A DNA stretch of 61,655 nt from an uncultured archaeon (lineage in GTDB: Archaea > Halobacteriota > Methanosarcinia > Methanosarcinales > Methanoperedenaceae). The DNA lies in contig CABMCA010000101.1 in the NCBI GenBank assembly GCA_902384525.1, positions 1-61,655 on the forward strand. Reading direction: 5' to 3'. The notes beneath the pieces were generated by a model that made no database searches, had not been told where the DNA came from, and saw only the letters and a list, made by a program, of their open reading frames with translations. Of the stretch, positions 35,474 to 50,923 are shown piece by piece (position 1 is the first letter of the stretch; each line of letters opens with the position of its first letter). The position numbers and the translations under genes were made by a program.

Positions 35474-36256
35474 ATGGGTTCAATCAATTGGAAAGTATAC
35501 TTTATTTTAATAAGTTCATGTATAATCATATCTTCAGCAAATGCTATCGATTATCCAGATGAGCGACCTTCAATTGAATCCGGAAAAAATATCTATCTAT
35601 CGAACTGTGCGGGATGCCATGGTGAAAAAGGGGATGGATCAACTTTTTCTGGCGCTTTCAATTTCACAAACAGCGAAAAGATAATCAACTCCAATTCGTC
35701 AATATTTTTTGATGCGATAACAAATGGAATTCCAGGAACTGCTATGTCATCTTTTAGCAAACTTCCAAAAAAAGACAGATGGGATGTTATAGCATATCTC
35801 TGGACTTTCTGGATCGACAGGCAATCAGCAGAAAATGGGAAAATGATCTATGTGAAAAACTGTGCAGGATGTCACGGCATGCTGGGAAATGGATATGGTT
35901 TTCCCGAGGCTTTTGATTTTACGAATTTAAGCCAGACAGCATCAAAGCAACCATCCGTTTTTTTTGATCGTTTAACCCAGGGCATCCCCGGGACAGCTAT
36001 GCGCTCATATAAGAGCGACCTGACTGAAAATGAACGCTGGGATGCCGTAAAATATCTATTCACATTCCAGTTCAGTGATTATCAGTTCCCAGTACCTCAA
36101 ATTACTCAGCCCCAAATCACTCCCGCGACAACAAAACCTCAATACTCCGGGAAGGAATGGTATAATACAACAGGCGGTGGCGCAATAATTTTAGTTTCAG
36201 CAGGGTTGGCGATTTTTATATTATATCTTTTTATAAGGGGGCTTAAAGAAAGATGA
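35474..36256 (+). CDS. Dihaem cytochrome c, membrane-anchored
   Basis: This 260-residue exported protein has a signal peptide (to Ala ~24), two class I cytochrome c domains (NCAGCHGEKGDG near residue 43 and NCAGCHGMLGNG near residue 132, each with a distal Met in GTAMSSF and GTAMRSY) and a C-terminal TM helix (residues ~235-255). Electron transfer on the outer face of the membrane is expected. Its stop overlaps the NorC-like start by four bases (ATGA), so it is likely the electron feeder of the NO reductase encoded next. Confidence 0.9.
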   Translation: MGSINWKVYFILISSCIIISSANAIDYPDERPSIESGKNIYLSNCAGCHGEKGDGSTFSGAFNFTNSEKIINSNSSIFFDAITNGIPGTAMSSFSKLPKKDRWDVIAYLWTFWIDRQSAENGKMIYVKNCAGCHGMLGNGYGFPEAFDFTNLSQTASKQPSVFFDRLTQGIPGTAMRSYKSDLTENERWDAVKYLFTFQFSDYQFPVPQITQPQITPATTKPQYSGKEWYNTTGGGAIILVSAGLAIFILYLFIRGLKER

Positions 36257-36834
36257 ACAATAACCGGCTCATATTGATCGGGCTTCTTATCCCTGCAATT
36301 CTTATGATCCCGTTTAGCATAATCTCATTCTACACGGATTTTGCCAACAGGAATCCTGATCCTTTATCTGTAACTGTTGATTTTGATCAAAACGCATACA
36401 ATGCAGTTGAAGGAAAGAAAGCTTTCGAGCAGTACCAGTGCATGGACTGCCATACCATCGTAGGGAATGGGGCATATTTCGCACCTGACCTGACCACGGT
36501 TTATAAAAGAATAGGAGAAAATGACGCAGCACTTTCTAATTTTATTCTTTCAGGTGCATCCGCAAAGGGTATGCAGCCAATGCGGGATCGAGGCATGACA
36601 GAAGACGATGCTTACAGGATAACCGCTTTTTTGAAATATGCAAATATGCTTGATACCAACGGCTGGCCTGGCGCCGGTTCATGGGAGAGGGACGGTAATC
36701 CGGACAGTACGTCAGCAAAAAAACTGGATTTTTTCGATATCTGGCAGGTAGTGTCAGGGATCGTATTTATAAACGTGCTGATATTTGCGATAATTCTTGC
36801 TTATGAGAATAAGAAAAATGACAGGGAGGCTTGA
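36253..36834 (+). CDS. norC: NorC-like monohaem cytochrome c subunit
   Basis: This 193-residue protein has an N-terminal TM helix (residues ~5-27). One haem c site, QCMDCHTIVGNGAYFAPDLT, lies near residue 57 and a Met ligand in GMQPM near residue 113. An additional C-terminal TM helix (~165-187) is not found in the ~150-residue bacterial NorC. The EGKKAFEQYQC lead-in is the NorC pattern. NorC passes electrons to the haem b of NorB. It is translationally coupled to both neighbours. Confidence 0.88.
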   Translation: MNNNRLILIGLLIPAILMIPFSIISFYTDFANRNPDPLSVTVDFDQNAYNAVEGKKAFEQYQCMDCHTIVGNGAYFAPDLTTVYKRIGENDAALSNFILSGASAKGMQPMRDRGMTEDDAYRITAFLKYANMLDTNGWPGAGSWERDGNPDSTSAKKLDFFDIWQVVSGIVFINVLIFAIILAYENKKNDREA

Positions 36835-36839
36835 GACGA

Positions 36840-38216
36840 ATGAGTGAATATCCATCAAAAATAAAAACAAGAAAATACTTCATTACAGCTATCCTGCTAT
36901 TTATTGTCCAGATGCTTCTTGGTCTTATAATGAGCGTTGATGTCCTTGCAAGAGACTCTTCAACAAATCTGCCTTTGACATTTGATATTCTAAAAGCGCT
37001 TCATCTCAATTTAATGGTACTCTGGCTGCTTCTTGGATTTATTGGCGGCCTGTATTATCTGCTTCCGGCTGAGGCCGGACGCGATATAAAGCATCCGCGT
37101 TTGATCGATATCCAGTTCTGGTCCCTTCTTCTTATTGGCATCGGGATCATCATCTCTGAGATTTTCTTCACAGGAAGGAACTGGTGGCTGGTAGAAGGAA
37201 GAGAATACCTGGAAGCTGGAAGATTCTGGGATATCCTTCTCACAGCGGGACTTTTAAGCGTTGTTTACAATGTGATCGCTACGATTTTTGAAAGCAGGAA
37301 CAAATTAAGTTCTCCCATTCTTGTCCTTGCTGCAGGCGCTATAGGCTCGATATTAATGTATGTTCCCGGTGAAATATGGTTTGACAGCATTGTAGCTGCC
37401 GAATATTTCAGGTGGTGGGTAGTTCACTACTGGGTCGAGGCTTCATTTGAATTAATAGCAGCAGGAGTAATAGCACTTATTCTCCTGGCAATGACGCAGG
37501 TGCGCCGTGAAATAATTGAAAAATACCTGGCAATTGAAGTCGCACTCATTCTTCTTACAGGAATAATCGGGCAGGGCCATCATTATTACTGGATCGGGAC
37601 ACCAGGCATCTGGATTTTCCTTGGCGGACTTTTTAGCGCACTTGAACCTGTTCCTCTTTTCCTTATGGTCTGGTCGGCATATAAAGACCTGAAAGAGAAC
37701 AAAAAACCTATCCCGAATAAAGTTGTGCTTTACATGATCATCGGAGCTACACTCGGGAACTTTGTTGGAGCAGGGCTGTGGGGCTTCATCCATACGTTGC
37801 CGCAGATCAATTTCTTCACTCACGGAACCCAGATAACGTCATCACACGCACATTTTGCTACTCCTGGCACATATCTGTTACTCGTTATTGGAATTGCGTA
37901 TCTTGCAATCCCGGAAATATCCGGAAGATTGGACTTTTCACACTACAGGGGTAAAATCGGGTTCTGGCTTCTTGTTATTGGTTTTTTGAATATGATAATC
38001 GCATTGATGATAGCAGGGGTCATCCAGGTATACCAGCAAAGGATCGAGGGTTTGAGTTTCATGAGCGTCCAGAATACTCTATTTCCGTATTTTGAATGGC
38101 GATTAATTGGCGGGTTGATCGCCTTTGCTGGAGGATTGCTGATAGCGTATGATCTTATTTTGATAAGCACAATAAAAGTAAAAACTGAACGAAATAATAT
38201 AAATAAGGAGATTTAA
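36840..38216 (+). CDS. norB: Nitric oxide reductase catalytic subunit NorB (cNOR type)
   Basis: This 458-residue haem-copper-superfamily protein with ~12 TM helices reduces 2 NO to N2O. Counting from ATG 36840 (GGGAGG site upstream): His55 for low-spin haem; His196 with Glu200 and Glu204 in HYWVEASFE; His247/His248 in GQGHHYYW; Glu269; His336/His338 in SSHAHFATPGTY. Intervals 196-247-269-336 (51, 22 and 67) equal those of Pseudomonas cNOR (207-258-280-347), as does the four-residue step to Glu211. No cross-linked Tyr of oxygen reductases is present. TTG 36831 is an alternative start. The M24 peptidase gene follows after one base. Confidence 0.92.
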   Translation: MSEYPSKIKTRKYFITAILLFIVQMLLGLIMSVDVLARDSSTNLPLTFDILKALHLNLMVLWLLLGFIGGLYYLLPAEAGRDIKHPRLIDIQFWSLLLIGIGIIISEIFFTGRNWWLVEGREYLEAGRFWDILLTAGLLSVVYNVIATIFESRNKLSSPILVLAAGAIGSILMYVPGEIWFDSIVAAEYFRWWVVHYWVEASFELIAAGVIALILLAMTQVRREIIEKYLAIEVALILLTGIIGQGHHYYWIGTPGIWIFLGGLFSALEPVPLFLMVWSAYKDLKENKKPIPNKVVLYMIIGATLGNFVGAGLWGFIHTLPQINFFTHGTQITSSHAHFATPGTYLLLVIGIAYLAIPEISGRLDFSHYRGKIGFWLLVIGFLNMIIALMIAGVIQVYQQRIEGLSFMSVQNTLFPYFEWRLIGGLIAFAGGLLIAYDLILISTIKVKTERNNINKEI

Positions 38217-39339: not shown

Positions 39340-39383
39340 CTGTCAAATTCTATTTTGGGCTTTTATATTAGGCAGGCGAAAGA

Positions 39384-39410
39384 TATAAATGCAAGCAAGT
39401 ACATACTTGC
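39384..39410 (+). promoter_or_regulatory. TATA box and TetR-type palindromic operator
   Basis: ATATAAAT (39383-39390) is a TATA-like box 25-30 bases before the TetR start at 39415. Just downstream, GCAAGTACATACTTGC (39395-39410) is a perfect palindrome with 7-bp arms and a 2-bp spacer. It lies between TATA box and start codon, where a bound repressor would block initiation. Autorepression by the following TetR protein is the likely reading. Confidence 0.7.
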
Positions 39411-39414
39411 ATTA

Positions 39415-40008
39415 ATGAATAAAACTGAGCAAAGAATCCTGGATGCGGCTATGAAAGTGTTCGCAGAGGATGGATTTGAGGGTGCAAGGACTAGAAAGAT
39501 TGCAGAATTAGCAGGTGTTAACGAAGTGACTTTATTCCGCAAATTCCAATCAAAAGAGAATATTCTGCGAGTGGTCATGATGAAGAATAGGGATATTGTT
39601 CTTCAAGCGCTTGACCCTGTATTCTTGAATGAAAACAGGGAAAACTTCCAGGTAAATCTTCACAATCTGTGTGAAAATATCATGAAAATTATTGAAGAAA
39701 GGATTGACATGATGGTTATACTGATCGCAGAATCATGGAAAAAACCTGAGATCGCCAGTATCCTGGCTCCGGTTCCAAAAATGATACTTATGAGGCTGAC
39801 CGATTATTTTGAGCAGCAGCAAAAACAAGGAAGAATGCGAAATGTAAATCCCAAAGTTGCAGCTCTGGCCTGCATCAGCTATATTTTTTATTCAAATCTT
39901 TTAAGGAGAATGCTCAGGGACAATAAGTCATCTGGCAGTAAAGAAGAGTTTGAAGCATTTATTGATATTTTTTTAAATGGAATTCTTGAATCTAAAGATA
40001 AAAAATGA
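39415..40008 (+). CDS. TetR-family transcriptional repressor
   Basis: From ATG 39415 it is 197 residues. The N-terminal HTH is typical of TetR (QRILDAAMKVFAEDGFEGAR, TRKIAELAGVNEVTLFRKFQ, SKENILRVV) and a helical ligand-binding domain follows. The longer frame to 39355 runs through the operator and TATA box and is not a real N-terminus. It heads an apparent operon with an exported COG1361-type protein and an ABC transporter, so it probably responds to the exported compound. Confidence 0.92.
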   Translation: MNKTEQRILDAAMKVFAEDGFEGARTRKIAELAGVNEVTLFRKFQSKENILRVVMMKNRDIVLQALDPVFLNENRENFQVNLHNLCENIMKIIEERIDMMVILIAESWKKPEIASILAPVPKMILMRLTDYFEQQQKQGRMRNVNPKVAALACISYIFYSNLLRRMLRDNKSSGSKEEFEAFIDIFLNGILESKDKK

Positions 40009-40054: not shown

Positions 40055-41233
40055 ATGAATAATAAATCCAATATATCCTGTATTAAAATATCAATCCTGT
40101 TCGCAGTCGCTGTAATCCTTTTGTTGACAGTTCCTGCCAATGCCGAAATTGATGTAGTATTAAGCAAACTCTCGCCCCAACCTGTCGAACCCGGCCATGA
40201 TCTTATGCTTTCGCTCACACTTGCAAATGGAAATGCGCAGGCGAATAACGTTATTCTTACCATCGATCCTGACCCATCGATCATCCTTAAAAATGAAAAT
40301 GATCGGGTCATCAATGAAGGTACAATTATCAGTTATGGTACCGTGGCTGAAAATTATCTTCTTCATATTGACCAGAGTGCATTTTCAGGTATTTATGAAA
40401 TTGAGTTCATGGTGAACTGGATGAGCAGTGACCAGCTGCATGAAATTAATAAAACATTTAAAGTTATGGTGCAGGGAGCGCCGCAGCTTGCAATTTCCAA
40501 TATTACGATCGACTCTGGATCCATAAGCCCGAAGGATATGTTCAATATTACATTTTTACTCTCAAATGCGGGATCAGGTATCGCACGTGAAGTAGAGATC
40601 AGTGCAGAAACATCCGGCCTGCCATTCGTTCCTGCAGGAGCCGACACAAAGATCATAAAAACACTCAAGCCAGATGAGTCTATCGAATTGAACTTCCGTC
40701 TTTTGGTCAAAGATAAAACCGTGATTTCATCCTATTCGATCCCGATAAAGATGGACTATAAAGATGAATCAGGGAAAAATCAGAGTTCCCGGAGTTTTGT
40801 AGGTGTGAATATACTTGGCAATGCTGAACTTTCAATTGGAAATATCAAGACAGAGCCCCAAAATCCTGTAAAAGGTGATCCTGTTACAATGACCCTGCGC
40901 ATTGAAAATTCAGGAAATGGGGACGCGAGGGCAGCAAAAGTAAGCCTAAATATACCATTTGAAGGAACTAAAACTGCCTTTCTGGGAAAAATAAAGCCGG
41001 ATGACGATGCACCGGGTGTATTTACATTGAATGCAGCCCAGAGCGGCGATATTCCATATACTGCCACAATCGAGTTTGAAGATGATCTTGGAAAGCACAC
41101 AGTTAAAGAGGCACTCTCCCTAAACGTGCGCGATACAAATAAAAGTGGAATAATAATACCTGTTATTGTGGTAATACTTGCGGCTGGAACATTTGTCTTT
41201 TACTTTTCCCGCAGGAAAAATAAGAAACAATGA
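40055..41233 (+). CDS. Exported COG1361/CARDB-type protein of the ABC operon
   Basis: From ATG 40055 (AAGGAGAA upstream) it is 392 residues: signal peptide ending ...VPANAEI; about three Ig-like beta domains of the CARDB/NEW3 type (FNITFLLSNAGSGIAREVEI, VTMTLRIENSGNGDARAAKV); and a C-terminal TM helix (GIIIPVIVVILAAGTFVFYF) with a basic tail. It is thus anchored with its bulk outside. It lies between a TetR regulator and a MacB-like permease, where bacterial systems have a MacA-type adaptor. An accessory role in export is inferred. Confidence 0.82.
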   Translation: MNNKSNISCIKISILFAVAVILLLTVPANAEIDVVLSKLSPQPVEPGHDLMLSLTLANGNAQANNVILTIDPDPSIILKNENDRVINEGTIISYGTVAENYLLHIDQSAFSGIYEIEFMVNWMSSDQLHEINKTFKVMVQGAPQLAISNITIDSGSISPKDMFNITFLLSNAGSGIAREVEISAETSGLPFVPAGADTKIIKTLKPDESIELNFRLLVKDKTVISSYSIPIKMDYKDESGKNQSSRSFVGVNILGNAELSIGNIKTEPQNPVKGDPVTMTLRIENSGNGDARAAKVSLNIPFEGTKTAFLGKIKPDDDAPGVFTLNAAQSGDIPYTATIEFEDDLGKHTVKEALSLNVRDTNKSGIIIPVIVVILAAGTFVFYFSRRKNKKQ

Positions 41234-41269: not shown

Positions 41270-42472
41270 ATGTTAACTGATCTGAATCTATCATTATTCC
41301 TGGCATATAAGTCAATTACAAAAGGCAATAAAGGAACCCTTGTTTTGACAATCTTTATTATGTCCCTTATCTTTGTAAATTTAGTATTTACAGCCTCCAT
41401 TTTTCTTGGATTGGGAAACACAGTGAATAACCAGGTAATTAATACTCTTTATGGAAACATTGCAGTTGAACCAAAAAAAGATGAAAAATATATCAGTGAC
41501 GTTCATTCACTGGAACAAAAGATAAATAGCGTTCCCGGCGTAACAGGCATCTCCTCACAATATGTAATTGGCGCCGCATTTTCCTATAAAGATAAAAGCG
41601 GGGCATGGGCTATCCGTTCAATCAATCCCGATGATGAAAAAACAGTCACTATAATACACAATTTCATGATCGATGGGGAATACCTGAGCAAGCTTGACAC
41701 TGATGAGATCATCCTTGGAAAAGAGATACCTGGTGGTTATGGCGGGGATCTTGAACATCTTTCACTTGGCGGAGTTAAGATCGGTGAATCTGTCGATGTG
41801 CTATTCAATAACGGCGTTAAACGGAGTTACCGGGTAAAAGGTGTATTTGATGTAAATTTCCAGCAGTCAAATAACCTCGCATACATAAGCCAGAATGAGA
41901 TGGAATCCGTACTTGGTTTCAATGATAAGGCATCACTTATCCTGATCAAGACCGGTGAAACTGGAAATGAAGAAATTTACATAAAAAAGTTCCTGGAACT
42001 GGGTATTAAAGAAGAGATCAAACCATGGACAGTCTATGCTGCCATGGTAAAAAACATAACTAAAAGTTTTGATATGATCGCTTTATTGATCGCCGTAATC
42101 GGACTTTTTGTGGCAAGCGTCACCATTTTTATCATAATATATGTGAACACCATAAGCAAAAGAAGGCAGATCGGAATATTGAGAGCCATTGGAATAAAGG
42201 AAAATATTATCATTCAATCTTATATCTTCCAGGCGATGTTCTATGCGATAAGCGGGACGATCATAGGTTTATTTATAATGTTTTTCATACTGGAACCCTG
42301 GTTTATCGAACATCCACTGAAATTCCCGGTCGGGTATGTTTCATTATTGATAGTACCTGAAAAAGTCTCGATAAATACTATAAGCCTGATAGCTGCTGCA
42401 TTGGCTGCGGGATTGATACCATCATGGATGGCAGTCCGGGAAACGATATTAGAGGCTATCTGGGGTGATTGA
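41270..42472 (+). CDS. ABC transporter permease, MacB/FtsX type
   Basis: This 400-residue membrane protein has an N-terminal TM helix (residues ~22-48), an extracytoplasmic MacB-PCD-like domain (~50-260) and three C-terminal TM helices. The FtsX motif is KRRQIGILRAIGIKENIII. The fold matches type VII ABC exporters or lipoprotein-release systems, which pull on a partner outside the membrane rather than moving substrate through it. The stop overlaps the ATPase gene start region. Confidence 0.9.
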   Translation: MLTDLNLSLFLAYKSITKGNKGTLVLTIFIMSLIFVNLVFTASIFLGLGNTVNNQVINTLYGNIAVEPKKDEKYISDVHSLEQKINSVPGVTGISSQYVIGAAFSYKDKSGAWAIRSINPDDEKTVTIIHNFMIDGEYLSKLDTDEIILGKEIPGGYGGDLEHLSLGGVKIGESVDVLFNNGVKRSYRVKGVFDVNFQQSNNLAYISQNEMESVLGFNDKASLILIKTGETGNEEIYIKKFLELGIKEEIKPWTVYAAMVKNITKSFDMIALLIAVIGLFVASVTIFIIIYVNTISKRRQIGILRAIGIKENIIIQSYIFQAMFYAISGTIIGLFIMFFILEPWFIEHPLKFPVGYVSLLIVPEKVSINTISLIAAALAAGLIPSWMAVRETILEAIWGD

Positions 42473-42476
42473 AACC

Positions 42477-43232
42477 ATGGTGGATGATTTGACTTCAAAT
42501 ATCGGGAACAAAAATGAAATACTTCTTGGAATAAGAAACCTCACCCGGATATATACAATGGGTAAAGTGCGCGTCCCGGCTCTTAATAATGTCACATTCA
42601 ACATAAAACGAGGAGAATTTGCTGCAATAATGGGAAAAAGCGGAAGTGGAAAGTCCACCTTGCTTCATCAGCTCGGATTGCTCGACATTCCTACATCAGG
42701 TGAGATCAATATCGGTGGAATTGACATTTTAAAATTATCTGAATCACAGAAAGCAAAATTCCGCCTTGAGAGATTCGGTTATGTATTCCAGGAATATGCT
42801 CTCCTGCCTGAGCTTACAGCTCTTGAGAATGTTTTTCTTCCGGCAATGGCGCGCGGAAGAAAAAAGGAAGATTATTTGAAAACAGGCACAAAAGCGCTCG
42901 AACAAGTCGGGCTTGGAGCGCGTTTACATCACCGTCCGCGAGAGATGTCAGGAGGCGAGCAGCAGCGTGTTGCGATCGCAAGAGCGCTTATCAATGATCC
43001 AGATATCCTGTTCGCAGATGAGCCGACAGCAAATCTGGACAGCTCTTCAACCAGACAGATACTTGAATTATTCCAGAAATTGAACCGGGAGCTCGGTTTG
43101 ACTGTCCTGATGGTGACACATGAGCCTGAGGACAGGAAGTATGTGAGCAGGGTGATATGGCTCAAAGATGGAGAGCTTGTGGAAAAAGAAGGGATACCGG
43201 GGGCAGGAAATCTACAAATTGCAAAAGATTAA
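42477..43232 (+). CDS. ABC transporter ATPase, LolD/MacB type
   Basis: This 251-residue ATPase from ATG 42477 (a GTG at 42465 is possible) has Walker A IMGKSGSGKSTLLHQL, Q-loop FQEYALLPEL, signature MSGGEQQRVAIARAL, Walker B ILFADEPTANLDSSS and the H-loop MVTHEPED. It pairs with the preceding MacB-like permease. The likely operon is TetR - exported COG1361-type protein - permease - ATPase. Confidence 0.94.
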   Translation: MVDDLTSNIGNKNEILLGIRNLTRIYTMGKVRVPALNNVTFNIKRGEFAAIMGKSGSGKSTLLHQLGLLDIPTSGEINIGGIDILKLSESQKAKFRLERFGYVFQEYALLPELTALENVFLPAMARGRKKEDYLKTGTKALEQVGLGARLHHRPREMSGGEQQRVAIARALINDPDILFADEPTANLDSSSTRQILELFQKLNRELGLTVLMVTHEPEDRKYVSRVIWLKDGELVEKEGIPGAGNLQIAKD

Positions 43233-44525: not shown

Positions 44526-45770
44526 TCACTGATTTTTCCTTTTTCTTAAATAATATCCCGCCGCCCCAACGATCGCGATCAAAGCTGCGATACTTCCAGT
44601 AGCTGGCGAGCCCTTTGGCCCCGAATCAACAGTTATCGGGACAGTGCGTCTGAAGATTACAACATTGTTTGACTCGTCGATCCCCCTTAATTCCACATCA
44701 ACAAGGTACTTCTTTGCCGCTGCTTTCGGGTCAACTGTAAATCCCAGGACTGCTTCACCGCTCTCGCCGGACTCCAATTTTCCCACGAAATCAGACTTAT
44801 CGCTAAACTCAAACGGCTGGGAAGTATCCTTGAATACGCGCATTGAAACAGAATCAGCTTTTTTATTTCCTGTATTCTTAACAGTAATGTGAATTTCAGA
44901 GGTGCTTCCTGCTTTCAGGCTTACCGGGGTTGTTGTTACATTTTCCACTATGAGATGAGGAGCAGGCTTTATGGGTATGTTGAGTCCAAGGGTATTTGTC
45001 CGGTATGTGGCGCTCTGATCATTTTCATCCTTATATGTGATATTTAGTGTAGCCAGGTAATTCCCTTCTTTGATATTTTCATCGACATCTGCATAGAAGG
45101 TCGCTGTTTTACTGCCGTCCTTTGGAATTATGCCAAGGGTGTCTTCGTCAGAATAACTGTAACTGGAATTGAAGCCTTCAGGCAATAAGAGTTTAATTTT
45201 GACATTCTCCGCATTGCCCTTCCCTATGTTGTTAATATCAACAGACAGCTTTGCCTCCTTTGTATCAGCTATCAGCTTTTCAGGAGATGTTACAAGCGCT
45301 CCCACAACGAAATCTGCCTTTTTAGGATCAACGTATATAGGGAATTCTTTCTTTGTATATCCATTTCCTGTATCCCAGTTCAGTGTGACATTATATGTTC
45401 CCTTGATAGCATTGTCAGCTACCCTCAGTTTGTAGTGAAGCACATAAAAAATCTGGTTATCGCTTGTGCCTGCGGAGGGTCCAAAGTCCTTATCCGGAGA
45501 ATCCCCGGCCTCAAATAAAAATGGATATCCAGCATCCAGACGGAACCTAAGGTGGTCTGTCGGGATTGAAAGTGAGTTGTAAATCTGCCATCTTAAATCA
45601 AGGTCATTTCCGGCATCAGCCGGATCAGGGTCCTGACTCATGAAATTCGCCTGGATCCTGCTTCCCTGTGCTCCAGTGGGGGATTGGCCAAAAACAGGAG
45701 TGATCATTATCGAAAGGAAGATTATCAGTATAATGAATCCTATACTCTGCTTCAATATTTTGCTCTTCAT
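44526..45770 (-). CDS. Exported COG1361/CARDB-type protein of the RND cluster
   Basis: The 414-residue protein has a signal peptide (SIGFIILIIFLSIMITPVFG) and several Ig-like domains: DPDPADAGNDLDLRWQIYNS, LSVDINNIGKGNAENVKIKL and IHITVKNTGNKKADSVSMRV. A C-terminal TM helix after GSPATGSI is followed by a Lys/Arg tail. It overlaps the downstream half of the RND pair by four bases (45767-45770), so it is cotranscribed as the last gene. The arrangement mirrors that of the TetR/ABC operon. An external adaptor or substrate-binding role is inferred. Confidence 0.82.
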   Translation of the reverse strand: MKSKILKQSIGFIILIIFLSIMITPVFGQSPTGAQGSRIQANFMSQDPDPADAGNDLDLRWQIYNSLSIPTDHLRFRLDAGYPFLFEAGDSPDKDFGPSAGTSDNQIFYVLHYKLRVADNAIKGTYNVTLNWDTGNGYTKKEFPIYVDPKKADFVVGALVTSPEKLIADTKEAKLSVDINNIGKGNAENVKIKLLLPEGFNSSYSYSDEDTLGIIPKDGSKTATFYADVDENIKEGNYLATLNITYKDENDQSATYRTNTLGLNIPIKPAPHLIVENVTTTPVSLKAGSTSEIHITVKNTGNKKADSVSMRVFKDTSQPFEFSDKSDFVGKLESGESGEAVLGFTVDPKAAAKKYLVDVELRGIDESNNVVIFRRTVPITVDSGPKGSPATGSIAALIAIVGAAGYYLRKRKNQ

Positions 45771-46957
45771 GTTCTTACCTCAAATATGTTCATTAATTTT
45801 TTATATATATTTTTCATATTCACCGTATCGATTATGAGAATAATTGCAGGCACAATTGTTATAGCTGCGATCATGCTCGCTGCGACTCCATAGCTCATCA
45901 TGGTTCCCATATCCCCCAGGAACGTTAATCTTCCAAGAGACATCGCCTGGAAACCTATCAAAGCTGCAAGCGTTGTTGTCAACATGGGGATTATTACATT
46001 GTTCAGGGTTACTGTCATTGCTTCCCTGTGTCCAAGCTGGAACTGCGGATGACGCTCATTCAACGTGGACAGGTTTTGCAGTTCAAGCCTGTACCTTGTA
46101 ACAAGCTGTATCCCGAAATCTATGCCTATGCCCATTATCATCGATGTAACGCCCGATGTCTGGGAACTCAATCCCATTTGGATAAGCCCGACATAGCCCA
46201 TTGTCCAGAGGGTTCCGAATATTATTGTGGTCATCGGAGTGAACCCATATTTTATCGAACGGAACAATACGAGTACGATAATCAGTATCCCTACAAGCGA
46301 ATACAAGGATGTTTTTGTCATGTCGGGCGCGATAGCCGTTTGCATTATCTGGCTTTCCATCACACTGCCGCCGATGCTTGCCGTAATTCCTGGCGGTTTT
46401 GGAACTTGTTGTAGTATTTTCTCAAGTTCCCGCTCAAGTTTCGAGAGGTCTACATCATCGGTTGTGCGGATTGTCACAAGGGCTAAAGTGTAATCCTTGC
46501 TGATATACCTGTCAAGAAGCCCATTCTTATTTGCAAGATTCTGAATCTCTCTTGAGGATTGAGGCAGCCGTCCGCCGTTAATGCTCTTCAGTACTGTGGC
46601 AGGGCCTGTGGCGTCTATCACGTTATCGGTATGTAGCGCCAGCTCCGAGAGCTGATCTGTATACTGTATCACCCTGGGGTCTCTTACATCCCGCACCTCG
46701 TCCGAGCCTGTATACTGCGGGTCCATTTCGACTGCAAAAGATACAATATTCGTACTGCCGAACTCGTTCTCGATGCTGTTAAGGGTTTTTATAGCTTCGG
46801 CATCCTGCGGAAGCATCGACTTGGTATCGGATTTCTTTGTCTTGATTGTGCCTGCCATCTGGATTGCAAAAACGGATACCAGAAGCATAATGACAAGTAC
46901 CAGGACCGGGAATTTTGTGATAAAGTTTGAATATATTTCGATTATCTTATTACTCAT
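45767..46957 (-). CDS. MMPL/HAE3-type RND transporter, half-size (second)
   Basis: This 396-residue protein with one N-terminal TM helix has an extracytoplasmic domain (residues ~45-215) with DPRVIQYTDQLSELALHTDN, and then five TM helices including MIMGIGIDFGIQLVTRYRLE, the HAE3 TM4 motif. Full-length HAE3 pumps (~750-850 residues) contain two such halves. Here each half is a separate gene, and this one starts just after the stop of the other. Likely substrates are lipids or hydrophobic compounds (established for some HAE3 relatives). It overlaps the COG1361-type gene. Confidence 0.88.
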   Translation of the reverse strand: MSNKIIEIYSNFITKFPVLVLVIMLLVSVFAIQMAGTIKTKKSDTKSMLPQDAEAIKTLNSIENEFGSTNIVSFAVEMDPQYTGSDEVRDVRDPRVIQYTDQLSELALHTDNVIDATGPATVLKSINGGRLPQSSREIQNLANKNGLLDRYISKDYTLALVTIRTTDDVDLSKLERELEKILQQVPKPPGITASIGGSVMESQIMQTAIAPDMTKTSLYSLVGILIIVLVLFRSIKYGFTPMTTIIFGTLWTMGYVGLIQMGLSSQTSGVTSMIMGIGIDFGIQLVTRYRLELQNLSTLNERHPQFQLGHREAMTVTLNNVIIPMLTTTLAALIGFQAMSLGRLTFLGDMGTMMSYGVAASMIAAITIVPAIILIIDTVNMKNIYKKLMNIFEVRT

Positions 46958-46959
46958 CG

Positions 46960-48135
46960 TTACCTGCCTCTCTGGGTATGCATTTCTTTTTTAGCTGCAA
47001 GTTTTTCAAGCTTCCTGTGGGTGCTCCAGTACTCGTAGTCCTCTTCAAGCAGTATGAACACCGGGTTGACAAAAAGCGCTGCAAGAAGACAGAAAGCTAT
47101 CCCCAGCGCAAGGGTTTCACCCAGATGCTGGATCATGGGCACTGTAGCGAATGCAAGTACTCCAAAACCCACGATTACTGTAAGCCCTGAGCCTATGATG
47201 GCTGAGCCTATCCCCCGGACTGTGGTTCTCAATGAATCAAGCTGGCCGTAGTTTTTGGCTCTTTCCTCATTATATCTGCTTAGCATGAACACTCCGTATT
47301 CAACTCCAAGACCCAGTATCATTGAACTGAGACCCACTGTGGCTACAGAGAGCGATATTCCAAGCCATCCCAGTGTTCCCATCGTCCATATCAATCCTAA
47401 AGACAGGGGGGCAAATACCAGAAGGCCCCGTGTATATGAGCCCTCCATCAAGAAAAGCAGGAGGAGTATAAGAACTGCGGCAACGGTCAGAGTGAAAACA
47501 GCATCGCTCTTCAGTAAATCAAAAATAGTCATCCTGAGGGTTGGTCCGCCTGTTATGCCAAACTTTACACCGGGCGGCTTTGGAGTATAATCAATGCGCT
47601 TCTGGATGAGTTCGTCAAAACTCTTTATCTGTTCCTCTCCAGAGCCAATATCTGCAGTAACGTACATGAGCGTCATCTTATAATTCCGGCTGAAGAAAGC
47701 ATTTGCCTGAGGGCCGCGAAGGGTCTGCGTTATTTCCTCCGGCGTAACTTCACTTTTTCCCCTGAAAAAAGTGGCAGGTGAGGTGACGCTGGTTATACTT
47801 GACTCATCCCTCAGCACCCCGTCCAGGAAAATCAAGGATTGTATCACTCTGGGATCCCTGATATCCCTGACCGCACTATTCAGATCAACTGAATCATCAA
47901 TCTGCACTGCAATGACCACGGTATCTTCACCCCCAAATTTAGCTGATATGCGGTCGTTAAGCGCAAATATCGGTAGACCTTTTGGCATCTCTTTCCTGAA
48001 ATCGGAGTTTATTGTCAGATCCTTAAGTCCAATACCCAGTATAATTGTGAAAATAATTACTAATATAGCCAGTAATTTTGCATGTTTTCTTTGCATTTCT
48101 GCAAGTTTTACAAGTGATTTTTGCAGGGGATCCAT
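46960..48135 (-). CDS. MMPL/HAE3-type RND transporter, half-size (first)
   Basis: This 391-residue protein has the same architecture as its neighbour: TM1, an outer domain with RDIRDPRVIQSLIFLDGVLR, then five TM helices containing MILGLGVEYGVFMLSRYNEE. Asp/Glu residues in this helix are candidates for the proton relay. The stop lies two bases before the next half, so the two probably form a heteromeric RND pump. Divergent from it is a TrmB-type regulator that may control the cluster. Confidence 0.88.
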   Translation of the reverse strand: MDPLQKSLVKLAEMQRKHAKLLAILVIIFTIILGIGLKDLTINSDFRKEMPKGLPIFALNDRISAKFGGEDTVVIAVQIDDSVDLNSAVRDIRDPRVIQSLIFLDGVLRDESSITSVTSPATFFRGKSEVTPEEITQTLRGPQANAFFSRNYKMTLMYVTADIGSGEEQIKSFDELIQKRIDYTPKPPGVKFGITGGPTLRMTIFDLLKSDAVFTLTVAAVLILLLLFLMEGSYTRGLLVFAPLSLGLIWTMGTLGWLGISLSVATVGLSSMILGLGVEYGVFMLSRYNEERAKNYGQLDSLRTTVRGIGSAIIGSGLTVIVGFGVLAFATVPMIQHLGETLALGIAFCLLAALFVNPVFILLEEDYEYWSTHRKLEKLAAKKEMHTQRGR

Positions 48136-48257
48136 TTTGCCTCTTTAAAATAGGCTTAATTAATCAAAGGTTCTTATAAAGATTTCACTCTGAAAACAAC
48201 TAAAAATAGGTTTATTCAAGAAAAGCTTATAGGCAACAATTGCGTCAATATTAATGC

Positions 48258-49094
48258 ATGCTTGAAAAACTCAGGAGTTTTGGGCTTACAAAATATGAAG
48301 CCGATGTTTATCTCAGCCTTATACGTCTTGGCTCTGCCGATGCCAATGCCGTAGCGTCAGCATCAGGAGTTCCCCTGGGCAGGATGTACAGCATTCTCAA
48401 CGCACTTCATGAAAAAAAAATCATACGGTTGCAGGAGACAAGACCCCGCAAGTTTGCCCCTGTTGAGCCGGGAACGGCATTAAAATACCTCCTCGATGCC
48501 CAGCGTTTTAAACTCCAACAGGCATCCTTACAGCTCAGTGAGACTGCGAAAGAGCTTGAAAATGAGCTGCTTGGAATTAAAAAGTCAACGCAGGAAAAGC
48601 AGTTCTGGACTGCTGCCCTGGGCTCTGAAGAAACTCGTGATATCATTATAGAGCAAATAAACCAGGTAAATGATGAAATGTGCCTGACTATAGGTTACCC
48701 GGAGTTTTCAAAATATCTCCCATCTGGAAAAGAAGAAAAAAACGATACTAGAAAAGCGCTCCTGAGAGCCCTGGAAAGAGGTGTAAAGTTCAGGATGCTG
48801 ATTGACAGGAGTGTCAATTACCCGGATATGCACAGGGATGAGACCGTAAAGAGCATATTCAAATATCTTGACAGTAGCTTTCAGTGCAGAGTGATAAATT
48901 TCACCTCAACGCTTTTTGATATAATCGACGACGACAGGATAAACCTTAAGATCAGCAGCCCTGTAAAGAAAGAGGAACTGTTTGCCATAGTACATGTGAG
49001 GGATAAGAAGCTGGCTGCTGAAATGAAAAAACACTTCGAGGATATGTGGAAGAAAGCGGAGCAGTTGAAGGTGCAAGAAAATACGCAGGACTGA
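48258..49094 (+). CDS. TrmB-family transcriptional regulator
   Basis: The 278-residue protein has an N-terminal winged helix (LRSFGLTKYEADVYLSLIRL, AVASASGVPLGRMYSILNAL), a coiled-coil linker (residues ~85-115) and a C-terminal ligand domain of the TrmB-PLD type. Archaeal TrmB proteins sense sugars or other small molecules. Transcribed divergently from the half-size RND pair with 122 bases between start codons, it is the natural candidate regulator of that export cluster. Confidence 0.9.
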   Translation: MLEKLRSFGLTKYEADVYLSLIRLGSADANAVASASGVPLGRMYSILNALHEKKIIRLQETRPRKFAPVEPGTALKYLLDAQRFKLQQASLQLSETAKELENELLGIKKSTQEKQFWTAALGSEETRDIIIEQINQVNDEMCLTIGYPEFSKYLPSGKEEKNDTRKALLRALERGVKFRMLIDRSVNYPDMHRDETVKSIFKYLDSSFQCRVINFTSTLFDIIDDDRINLKISSPVKKEELFAIVHVRDKKLAAEMKKHFEDMWKKAEQLKVQENTQD

Positions 49095-49383: not shown

Positions 49384-50923
49384 CAGTACTTCCGAATACC
49401 CTGACTTCCGAACAAAAGATCATATTCAGCCATTGACAATCGCCCATAAAATATAATAAGGATATTATCCCATCTAAAAATATAGAGGGGATAATAAGAT
49501 GAGGCTTGTACCGGAAATACAAATAACCAATCTCTTGGCTTTAACCTCAGAACTATTTGGTAAGTCAAAAATAATAAATCTACCTGAAAAAGCAGAGTAT
49601 AATTTTCAAGACACATTGAATGTATTGCTGCGTGCAGCAACTTCGAATACAAATTCAATAGAATCAGCAAGCAATGACCTTAGAATAAAGACTCCAAATA
49701 AAAATGTGCCTTCTGCCGATTCAATTCACGACTACATAAATTCAAACTCTATTGATTACATGATGTCTTCATTCAGACAGATCAATACCGAAATAATTCA
49801 ACATGTGAATTTAAAAGGAACATATCAAGATGCTGCGATTGATTTTCACGACATACCTTATTATGGGGATAAAAATACATCAGGAATAAGAGGAATCAAA
49901 CCGAAAAATGGAACATCCTGGGGATATTCATTTTGTTCACTGGATATAATTGGTGACATCAAATTAACTCTCGATGTCATTGACATCAATGGATTAGCAA
50001 AGAATTATTCAATATTAATGAAATCAATGATGCAGAGACTAAAAGCAATGGAAATCAATCTCAGGACATTGTTTATGGATAGGGAGTTTTTTAATAACCC
50101 AACAATCTCTACTCTTCAAAGATTAAATAAAAATTACGTAATTGCAGCGAAATCAAACAAAAAAATCAACGCGATACTCCTCGAACATAAAAAGAAATTC
50201 GGGCAAACATCGACATTTTTTGAATATCAATTCGAAAAAGGTGGTCAAAAATTCATTATTGTAGCCGTTCTCAATCCAAAATATGATCCAAACTCCAAAC
50301 AGGATAAGGGGAACAATGAATATCATTTGTTTGCAACAAATCTCCCGATAAATAATGCATCAGATTTTATCAAAAAAATTCCCGAAGAGTATCGAAAACG
50401 TTGGAACATAGAGACAGGATATCGAGTTAAAAACGCATTCAAGATACGAACTTGTTCCAAATCTCCTATCGCAAGATCATTATTTTTTTTGATTCAATGT
50501 CTCTTATACAATATTGAGAGTTTATTGAAGCTGGTTATTGAGATTGATGCATATAAGCTAAAATCAGCTATCAGCGATGCAATAGTAGTCATTATTAAAG
50601 AGGGATACAAATTATTATGCAATGTCACAGTAGAAAATTTTATGAAGTCATTGTGGGAATTTATGGAAAATAGAACTGAAGATCTTCGTGACCGCCTGGG
50701 TGTAACCTGATTCTTATTATTTTCTTGGAGAAATATAAGGTAGATGGGAGCGGTGGCTATCAATAAAAAAGTAGAAATATGTGCTTATGTTAGCGTTTTT
50801 ACAAAAATAAATATACAGAAATGTCATTTTTCTTTTTGTGATGGAAATAGAAGTATTTGATTTGAGGTCAAATTGAGTATTTCAGAGTAGCTCGTTCGGA
50901 ACTAGGCTAAATCGGAAGTACTG
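49384..50923 (+). mobile_element. Complete IS4/ISH3-like insertion sequence, 1540 bp
   Basis: The 30-base ends at 49384-49413 and 50894-50923 (inverted) both read CAGTACTTCCGA inward and end TTCCGAAC, with 22 of 30 or more positions matching. TCTTTG stands directly outside each end (49378-49383 and 50924-50929), a 6-bp target duplication. One full-length transposase gene fills the interior. The element therefore looks complete and inserted recently enough to keep its target repeats. Confidence 0.9.
49499..50710 (+). CDS. IS4/ISH3-like DDE transposase
   Basis: This 403-residue transposase moves the surrounding element by cut and paste. The first acidic residue lies in DAAIDFHDIPYYGDKN, the second in RTLFMDREFF and the Glu in YRKRWNIETGYRVKN (Y-x2-R-x3-E pattern near residue 305). 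Length is normal and no frameshift or stop is present. The ATG follows AGGGGATAATAAG. It is the sole gene between the 30-base inverted repeats. Confidence 0.9.
   Translation: MRLVPEIQITNLLALTSELFGKSKIINLPEKAEYNFQDTLNVLLRAATSNTNSIESASNDLRIKTPNKNVPSADSIHDYINSNSIDYMMSSFRQINTEIIQHVNLKGTYQDAAIDFHDIPYYGDKNTSGIRGIKPKNGTSWGYSFCSLDIIGDIKLTLDVIDINGLAKNYSILMKSMMQRLKAMEINLRTLFMDREFFNNPTISTLQRLNKNYVIAAKSNKKINAILLEHKKKFGQTSTFFEYQFEKGGQKFIIVAVLNPKYDPNSKQDKGNNEYHLFATNLPINNASDFIKKIPEEYRKRWNIETGYRVKNAFKIRTCSKSPIARSLFFLIQCLLYNIESLLKLVIEIDAYKLKSAISDAIVVIIKEGYKLLCNVTVENFMKSLWEFMENRTEDLRDRLGVT

Follow-up and report, generated by a model that had tools for sequence, protein, structure and literature searches.

What does a COG1361-type protein contribute to a transporter with which it shares an operon? 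How archaeal export machines cooperate with what lies outside their membrane is poorly understood, and the label 'COG1361 S-layer family protein', carried by many archaeal genes, is uninformative. The question is raised by a stretch of 61,655 nucleotides from an uncultured archaeon of the Methanoperedenaceae (positions 1 to 61,655 of contig CABMCA010000101.1, assembly GCA_902384525.1, hereafter called the window), in which a COG1361-type gene is coupled to two half-size genes of resistance-nodulation-division (RND) transporters. The original prediction had noted that a second transporter class in the same 9 kb also has such a partner, and had proposed a general archaeal adaptor role for this family. 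The best explanation of the whole, which we hold with moderate confidence, is that the operon encodes one proton-driven HAE3-type exporter together with a dedicated extracellular partner.

The split RND pair and its partner

The operon order is RND half 1, RND half 2 and the COG1361-type gene (Table 1). The two halves are separated by a gap of 2 nt (46958-46959), and an ATGA shared by the stop of half 2 and the start of the COG1361 gene likely couples the translation of both; this arrangement agrees in every detail with what had been described. Half 1 and half 2 scored 115 and 98 bits against the Pfam model MMPL (PF03176), above its cut-off of 20.5, and the HAE3 model TIGR00921 was the top NCBIfam match of both (185 and 165 bits), which confirms the earlier assignment of half-size HAE3-type proteins. 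Neither half reached the full-length TIGR00921 cut-off of 351.9 bits, as expected for half-size genes, and each aligned only to positions 6-357 of the 733 of the model; since each spans half of it, the pair is termed here an HAE3-type split variant and not a full-length member. The closest solved structures to half 1 were MmpL4 and MmpL5. A predicted fold of half 1 had a low-confidence transmembrane part, with a mean predicted local distance difference test (pLDDT) score of 56.5.

The carboxylate motif of the fourth transmembrane helix (TM4) is GLGVE279-Y280 in half 1, with Glu-Tyr in 32/32 orthologues, and GIGID280-F281 in half 2, with Asp-Phe in 33 of the 34 orthologues compared. Fused relatives present first an Asp-Tyr and then mostly a Glu-Tyr pair at these sites. 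The asymmetric acid pair, kept in split and fused forms, suggests a single heterodimeric pump, in which the two halves would provide the equivalent of one RND protomer of 12 transmembrane helices, with Glu279-Tyr280 and Asp280-Phe281 as its TM4 carboxylates. An inversion of the half order relative to the fused RND was hinted at by E-Y/D-F versus D-Y/E-Y, and both a tree of the halves and profile comparisons were undecided on it.

The COG1361-type protein matched CARDB (50 bits) and NPCBM_assoc in Pfam. Its AlphaFold2 model (mean pLDDT 78.5) displayed an N-terminal helix, three immunoglobulin (Ig)-like domains at about residues 37-150, 151-268 and 269-384, and a C-terminal helix, so that the predicted architecture comprises a signal peptide, three Ig-like domains and a C-terminal transmembrane helix. 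The listed fold matches of this model were generic Ig-type proteins (integrin, transglutaminase, alpha-2-macroglobulin, Fusexin-1, TRAP), with no exporter accessory protein among them. Pfam searches up to E 1 gave no MmpS family match for this protein and no HlyD/biotinyl-lipoyl or hairpin domain for either COG1361 protein of the window. The protein would be secreted and held at the membrane by its C-terminal helix, and the three-Ig stalk may occupy the space below the S-layer, next to the extracellular porter domains of the pump.

The same gene order was found in relatives. RND half 2 is followed by one COG1361 gene in 29/29 further loci, taken from the genus and family of the window and from one sister family, and half 1 leads wherever the contig extends far enough, a few contigs ending before it. 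The gap between the two halves is mostly -8 to +7 nt across relatives, and that between half 2 and the COG1361 gene is -4 nt at the majority of 33 loci. Elsewhere in the order, families carry a single fused RND gene (about 700-800 aa), usually with two COG1361 genes behind it. When named genomes were scanned with an alignment of the second partner, for which profile A4 was used as profile A3 was too divergent, 80 Methanosarcinales loci were recovered (Methanosarcina, Methanolobus, Methanococcoides, Methanohalophilus, ANME-2 and others), nearly all of which presented the RND-COG1361-COG1361 layout. An RND gene was present in 75 of the 81 COG1361 runs, about half of the exceptions lying at contig ends. 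Judged by the kinship of these matches, the archaeon of the window belongs to the Methanosarcinales and is probably Methanoperedens-like. No fusion of COG1361 and RND genes was found, and partnerless RNDs of 950-1200 aa gave no COG1361 match. One other genome harbors a second copy of the split module (G024, L072:8054-10672), with half 1, a COG1361 gene and only a partial match to half 2.

Linkage to exporters and partner specificity

Whether such pairing exceeds chance was addressed by a census, in which profile A2 recovered 55 COG1361 loci from nine genomes of the order. An exporter (RND, FtsX-type ATP-binding cassette (ABC) or ABC-2) shared a same-strand run with the COG1361-like gene at 45 of them, a proportion biased upward by the transporter-linked seeds of A2; four others adjoined a tubulin/FtsZ-like gene and six neither. 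Among 282 random genes from five of these genomes, scored by a similar script, only eight stood beside such exporters (Fisher p about 1e-37). COG1361 genes are thus not randomly scattered relative to transporter genes in the Methanosarcinales, and their linkage to exporters is real. Counted from the RND side, a partner was present in 32/40 regions within the order and at 24/40 loci in other families of the phylum.

The partners are also specific. When 81 COG1361 proteins were arranged in a tree, the class of the neighboring transporter required six label changes, versus 33.5 when labels were shuffled, and the tree holds two RND-partner clades, FtsX-partner clades and one ABC-2 pair. This last pair, from contig C22 of the window's own genome and from a congener, is nested inside one of the RND-partner clades, and the C22 protein shares 39% identity with the partner of a Methanosarcinaceae-like RND. 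The COG1361 protein of the operon falls in the clade that accompanies split and split-like RNDs. RND type corresponded to COG1361 type at 139/141 loci, a positive outcome for the co-variation check that had been suggested, and where single genomes of one ANME-2-related family carry both module types, each RND keeps its cognate partner, so that species history alone is insufficient to account for the match. The two COG1361 proteins of the window (22% identity over 326 aa, E 6e-6) are, by these comparisons, only remote homologues in separate transporter-specific clades. The family therefore appears to consist of separate partners, each dedicated to its transporter class, and not of a single adaptor for all. 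In this way, the proposed general role stood as a family-level association with exporters, from which an adaptor function would be inferred, and did not stand as one general adaptor, considering the dedicated clades, the partnerless HAE3 RNDs and the unlinked half of the CARDB genes described below.

Several observations weigh against the exporter-partner explanation, besides the bias of the census seeds. First, with an independent CARDB model only 6/12 CARDB genes of the window's own genome were exporter-linked; this is still far above the 8/282 of the control (p 3e-6), and the unlinked genes are mostly of different size or architecture. Second, several HAE3 RNDs are partnerless (L045, L047, L060, L064, L268, L297, L302 and L304). 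Third, four genomes of the order have a COG1361-like gene immediately ahead of a tubulin/FtsZ-family gene (L101:5402-7685, on contig C55 of the window's own genome, G000; L114; L119; L121), the L101 neighbor scoring 114 bits with Pfam Tubulin, and this pairing is a conserved non-transporter partnership. At L235:3-2867, it is an MscS-type channel gene, and not an RND, that precedes tandem COG1361 genes of the RND-partner type. Finally, the Mantel r of 0.94 for partner co-variation is inflated by common descent, and conserved stretches of the COG1361 protein are found in each of its three Ig domains, none of which stands out as the interface.

Other RND subtypes were noticed along these searches. 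A fused subtype of about 700 aa has no COG1361 partner (L045, L047, L049 and L064), and at three of these four loci the same two conserved non-transport genes lie nearby. Beyond the last transmembrane helix, RNDs of about 1150-1190 aa (L287, L306 and L307), with no COG1361 neighbor, continue into an additional C-terminal region that looks beta-rich.

Known systems and alternative explanations

In a report published in 2024, the haloarchaeal operon HVO_A0466/HVO_A0467 of Haloferax volcanii was described as encoding an RND permease (HVO_A0467) and an RND-associated Ig-fold glycoprotein (HVO_A0466), for which a functional interaction was proposed, and the pairing was found to be widespread, with parallel phylogenies (PMC11349517). 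One such Haloferax RND was 44-fold up in iron starvation and was proposed to be a siderophore exporter (PMC11349517). The core finding is therefore already known in haloarchaea. Like HVO_A0466/A0467, the operon of the window couples an HAE3/MMPL-type RND with an Ig-fold protein predicted to be secreted and to carry a C-terminal transmembrane helix; the Haloferax partner gene, in contrast, lies upstream of one full-length RND and encodes four Ig domains, whereas that of the window lies downstream of two half-size genes and encodes three. On a Haloferax alexandrinus plasmid, genes annotated 'COG1361 S-layer family protein' and 'MMPL family transporter' overlap by 1 nt, and hhalign related the former protein to the partner of the window with probability 96 and E 1.7e-9 over 308 columns, including the transmembrane helix; the Haloferax alexandrinus pair is homologous to the proteins of the window. 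What is added here is the split-RND variant, its spread among methanogen and ANME lineages and an association with two ABC classes, the sections available of the Haloferax report making no mention of ABC-linked relatives (PMC11349517). No paper naming both 'COG1361' and 'RND' was found in the open-access literature.

The closest working analogue is MmpS with MmpL. MmpS5 is a partner of MmpL5 with a single transmembrane helix and an Ig-like domain, required for efflux and for trimerisation (PMC12501195; PMC12346298). Both MmpS5-MmpL5 and MmpS4-MmpL4 resemble the operon of the window in combining an MMPL-class RND with such an operon partner. However, MmpS has one Ig domain and not three, MmpL5 is full-length with a coiled-coil tube, the envelope includes a mycomembrane, and the protein of the window, having no MmpS match, is not a member of that family. 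By analogy with MmpS5 for MmpL5, the COG1361 stalk would most likely keep the pump in an active oligomer and/or steer the substrate away, the substrate probably being a hydrophobic or amphiphilic compound or a siderophore.

A different division of labor, to which we give a small but real probability, is that the COG1361 protein acts on the exported substrate itself, capturing or carrying it as an extracellular binder or acceptor of lipid or siderophore, without assembling or gating the pump. The shared operon and the co-inheritance would be expected in that case too, the iron-starvation response and proposed siderophore export in Haloferax would suit it (PMC11349517), and the FtsX/LolD-type partners accompany transporters related to the lipoprotein-releasing LolCDE; however, the Ig stalks have no evident pocket, the listed fold matches are of generic Ig type, and one protein from an RND-partner clade is the partner of an ABC-2 exporter instead. 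It is rather improbable that the COG1361 protein is a structural component of the envelope, associated with the S-layer, or a marker of stress, which only shares a transcript with stress-relieving exporters and makes no contact with them. The NCBI product name, the occurrence of CARDB domains in unrelated surface proteins of the window's genome, and the members paired with tubulin-like or MscS genes would fit such a role, which predicts neither the transporter-class clades nor the cognate matching of two modules within single genomes. Very improbable is mechanotransmission, in which the transporters would drive conformational work on the Ig stalk and thence on the S-layer or cell-wall glycans instead of exporting small substrates, as in FtsEX and MacB: the ABC members are of the FtsX/MacB_PCD type, a class known for this activity, and some COG1361-like genes adjoin a tubulin/FtsZ-like gene, but the RND members are nearest to MmpL/HAE3 exporters, for which we know of no such role, and the stalk has no enzymatic domain in Pfam. 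An exporter with a dedicated extracellular partner remains the preferred explanation of the operon.

Genomic surroundings and implications

The second set confirms that another transporter class in the same 9 kb has a COG1361 partner (Table 1). Its COG1361 reading frame is open from 39977, with the likely start used in the table. The set resembles ABC systems of the LolCDE, MacB and FtsEX type: its highest scores were obtained with the models of LolC/E (62 bits) and of LolD (242 bits), in both cases below the curated cut-offs. Unlike in those systems, the partner is a COG1361 protein.

The 122-bp region between half 1 and the divergent TrmB-family gene carries, as putative signals, a TATA-like box, TTTATAAG, at about 48180-48173 in front of half 1, and a GAGG preceding the ATG of this gene. 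The divergent TrmB-family protein is a candidate regulator that may control the exporter operon. On the other side, a terminator-like stem-loop sits between the COG1361 gene and a convergent gene of the cation diffusion facilitator (CDF) type. By eye, a transposase-like open reading frame of 403 aa lies near the TrmB gene (49499-50710), and a cytochrome c plus haem-copper-oxidase-like pair, similar to NorC/NorB, at 36253-38216.

Table 1. Features of the RND/COG1361 operon and of the neighboring ABC set in the window
Feature	Position	Strand	Description and basis
TetR-family regulator, before ABC set	39355..40008	plus	Pfam TetR_N 53 bits
Second COG1361-type protein, partner of ABC set	40055..41233	plus	CARDB 38.7 bits
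FtsX/LolC-type ABC permease	41270..42472	plus	Pfam FtsX 43 bits; TIGR02212 62 bits
LolD-like ABC ATPase	42465..43232	plus	Pfam ABC_tran 121 bits; TIGR02211 242 bits
Terminator-like stem-loop	44509..44528	plus	pattern match only
COG1361-type partner	44526..45770	minus	414 aa; Pfam CARDB/NPCBM_assoc; AlphaFold2; alignment A1
ATGA overlap, half 2 stop/COG1361 start	45767..45770	minus	4 nt
RND half 2	45767..46957	minus	396 aa; second MMPL/HAE3-type half; Pfam, NCBIfam
RND half 1	46960..48135	minus	391 aa, 6 transmembrane helices; MMPL/HAE3-type half transporter; Pfam, NCBIfam
Divergent intergenic region	48136..48257		122 bp; TATA-like box and GAGG; read from sequence
TrmB-family gene (helix-turn-helix + DUF7436)	48258..49094	plus	Pfam TrmB 61 bits, DUF7436 96 bits

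Bacterial membrane-fusion proteins such as MacA and AcrA/HlyD are an envelope accessory family common to RND and MacB-type ABC exporters. Unlike them, the COG1361 proteins of the window have no HlyD/membrane-fusion domain and are predicted to consist of tandem Ig domains and a C-terminal transmembrane helix. To our knowledge, archaea have no outer membrane, and the position of COG1361 relatives across euryarchaea beside several kinds of pump suggests a shared helper role in such cells, specialised clades of the Ig-stalk family serving FtsX/LolCDE-type and ABC-2 exporters. We propose tentatively, at somewhat less than even chances, that the tandem-Ig COG1361 proteins form a general class of exporter subunits in euryarchaea, the single-membrane counterpart of bacterial membrane-fusion proteins, with dedicated clades for HAE3 RNDs (fused or split), FtsX/LolCDE-type and ABC-2 exporters, and with at least one switch of transporter class by a partner lineage. 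Nature offers two experiments on the surfaces that decide partner choice, in the split-RND module and in the ABC-2 partner that sits inside an RND clade. If Ig stalks are indeed exporter subunits, a large annotation class would acquire a function open to testing, and archaeal RND and ABC exporters would share one accessory principle with the mycobacterial MmpS-MmpL systems.

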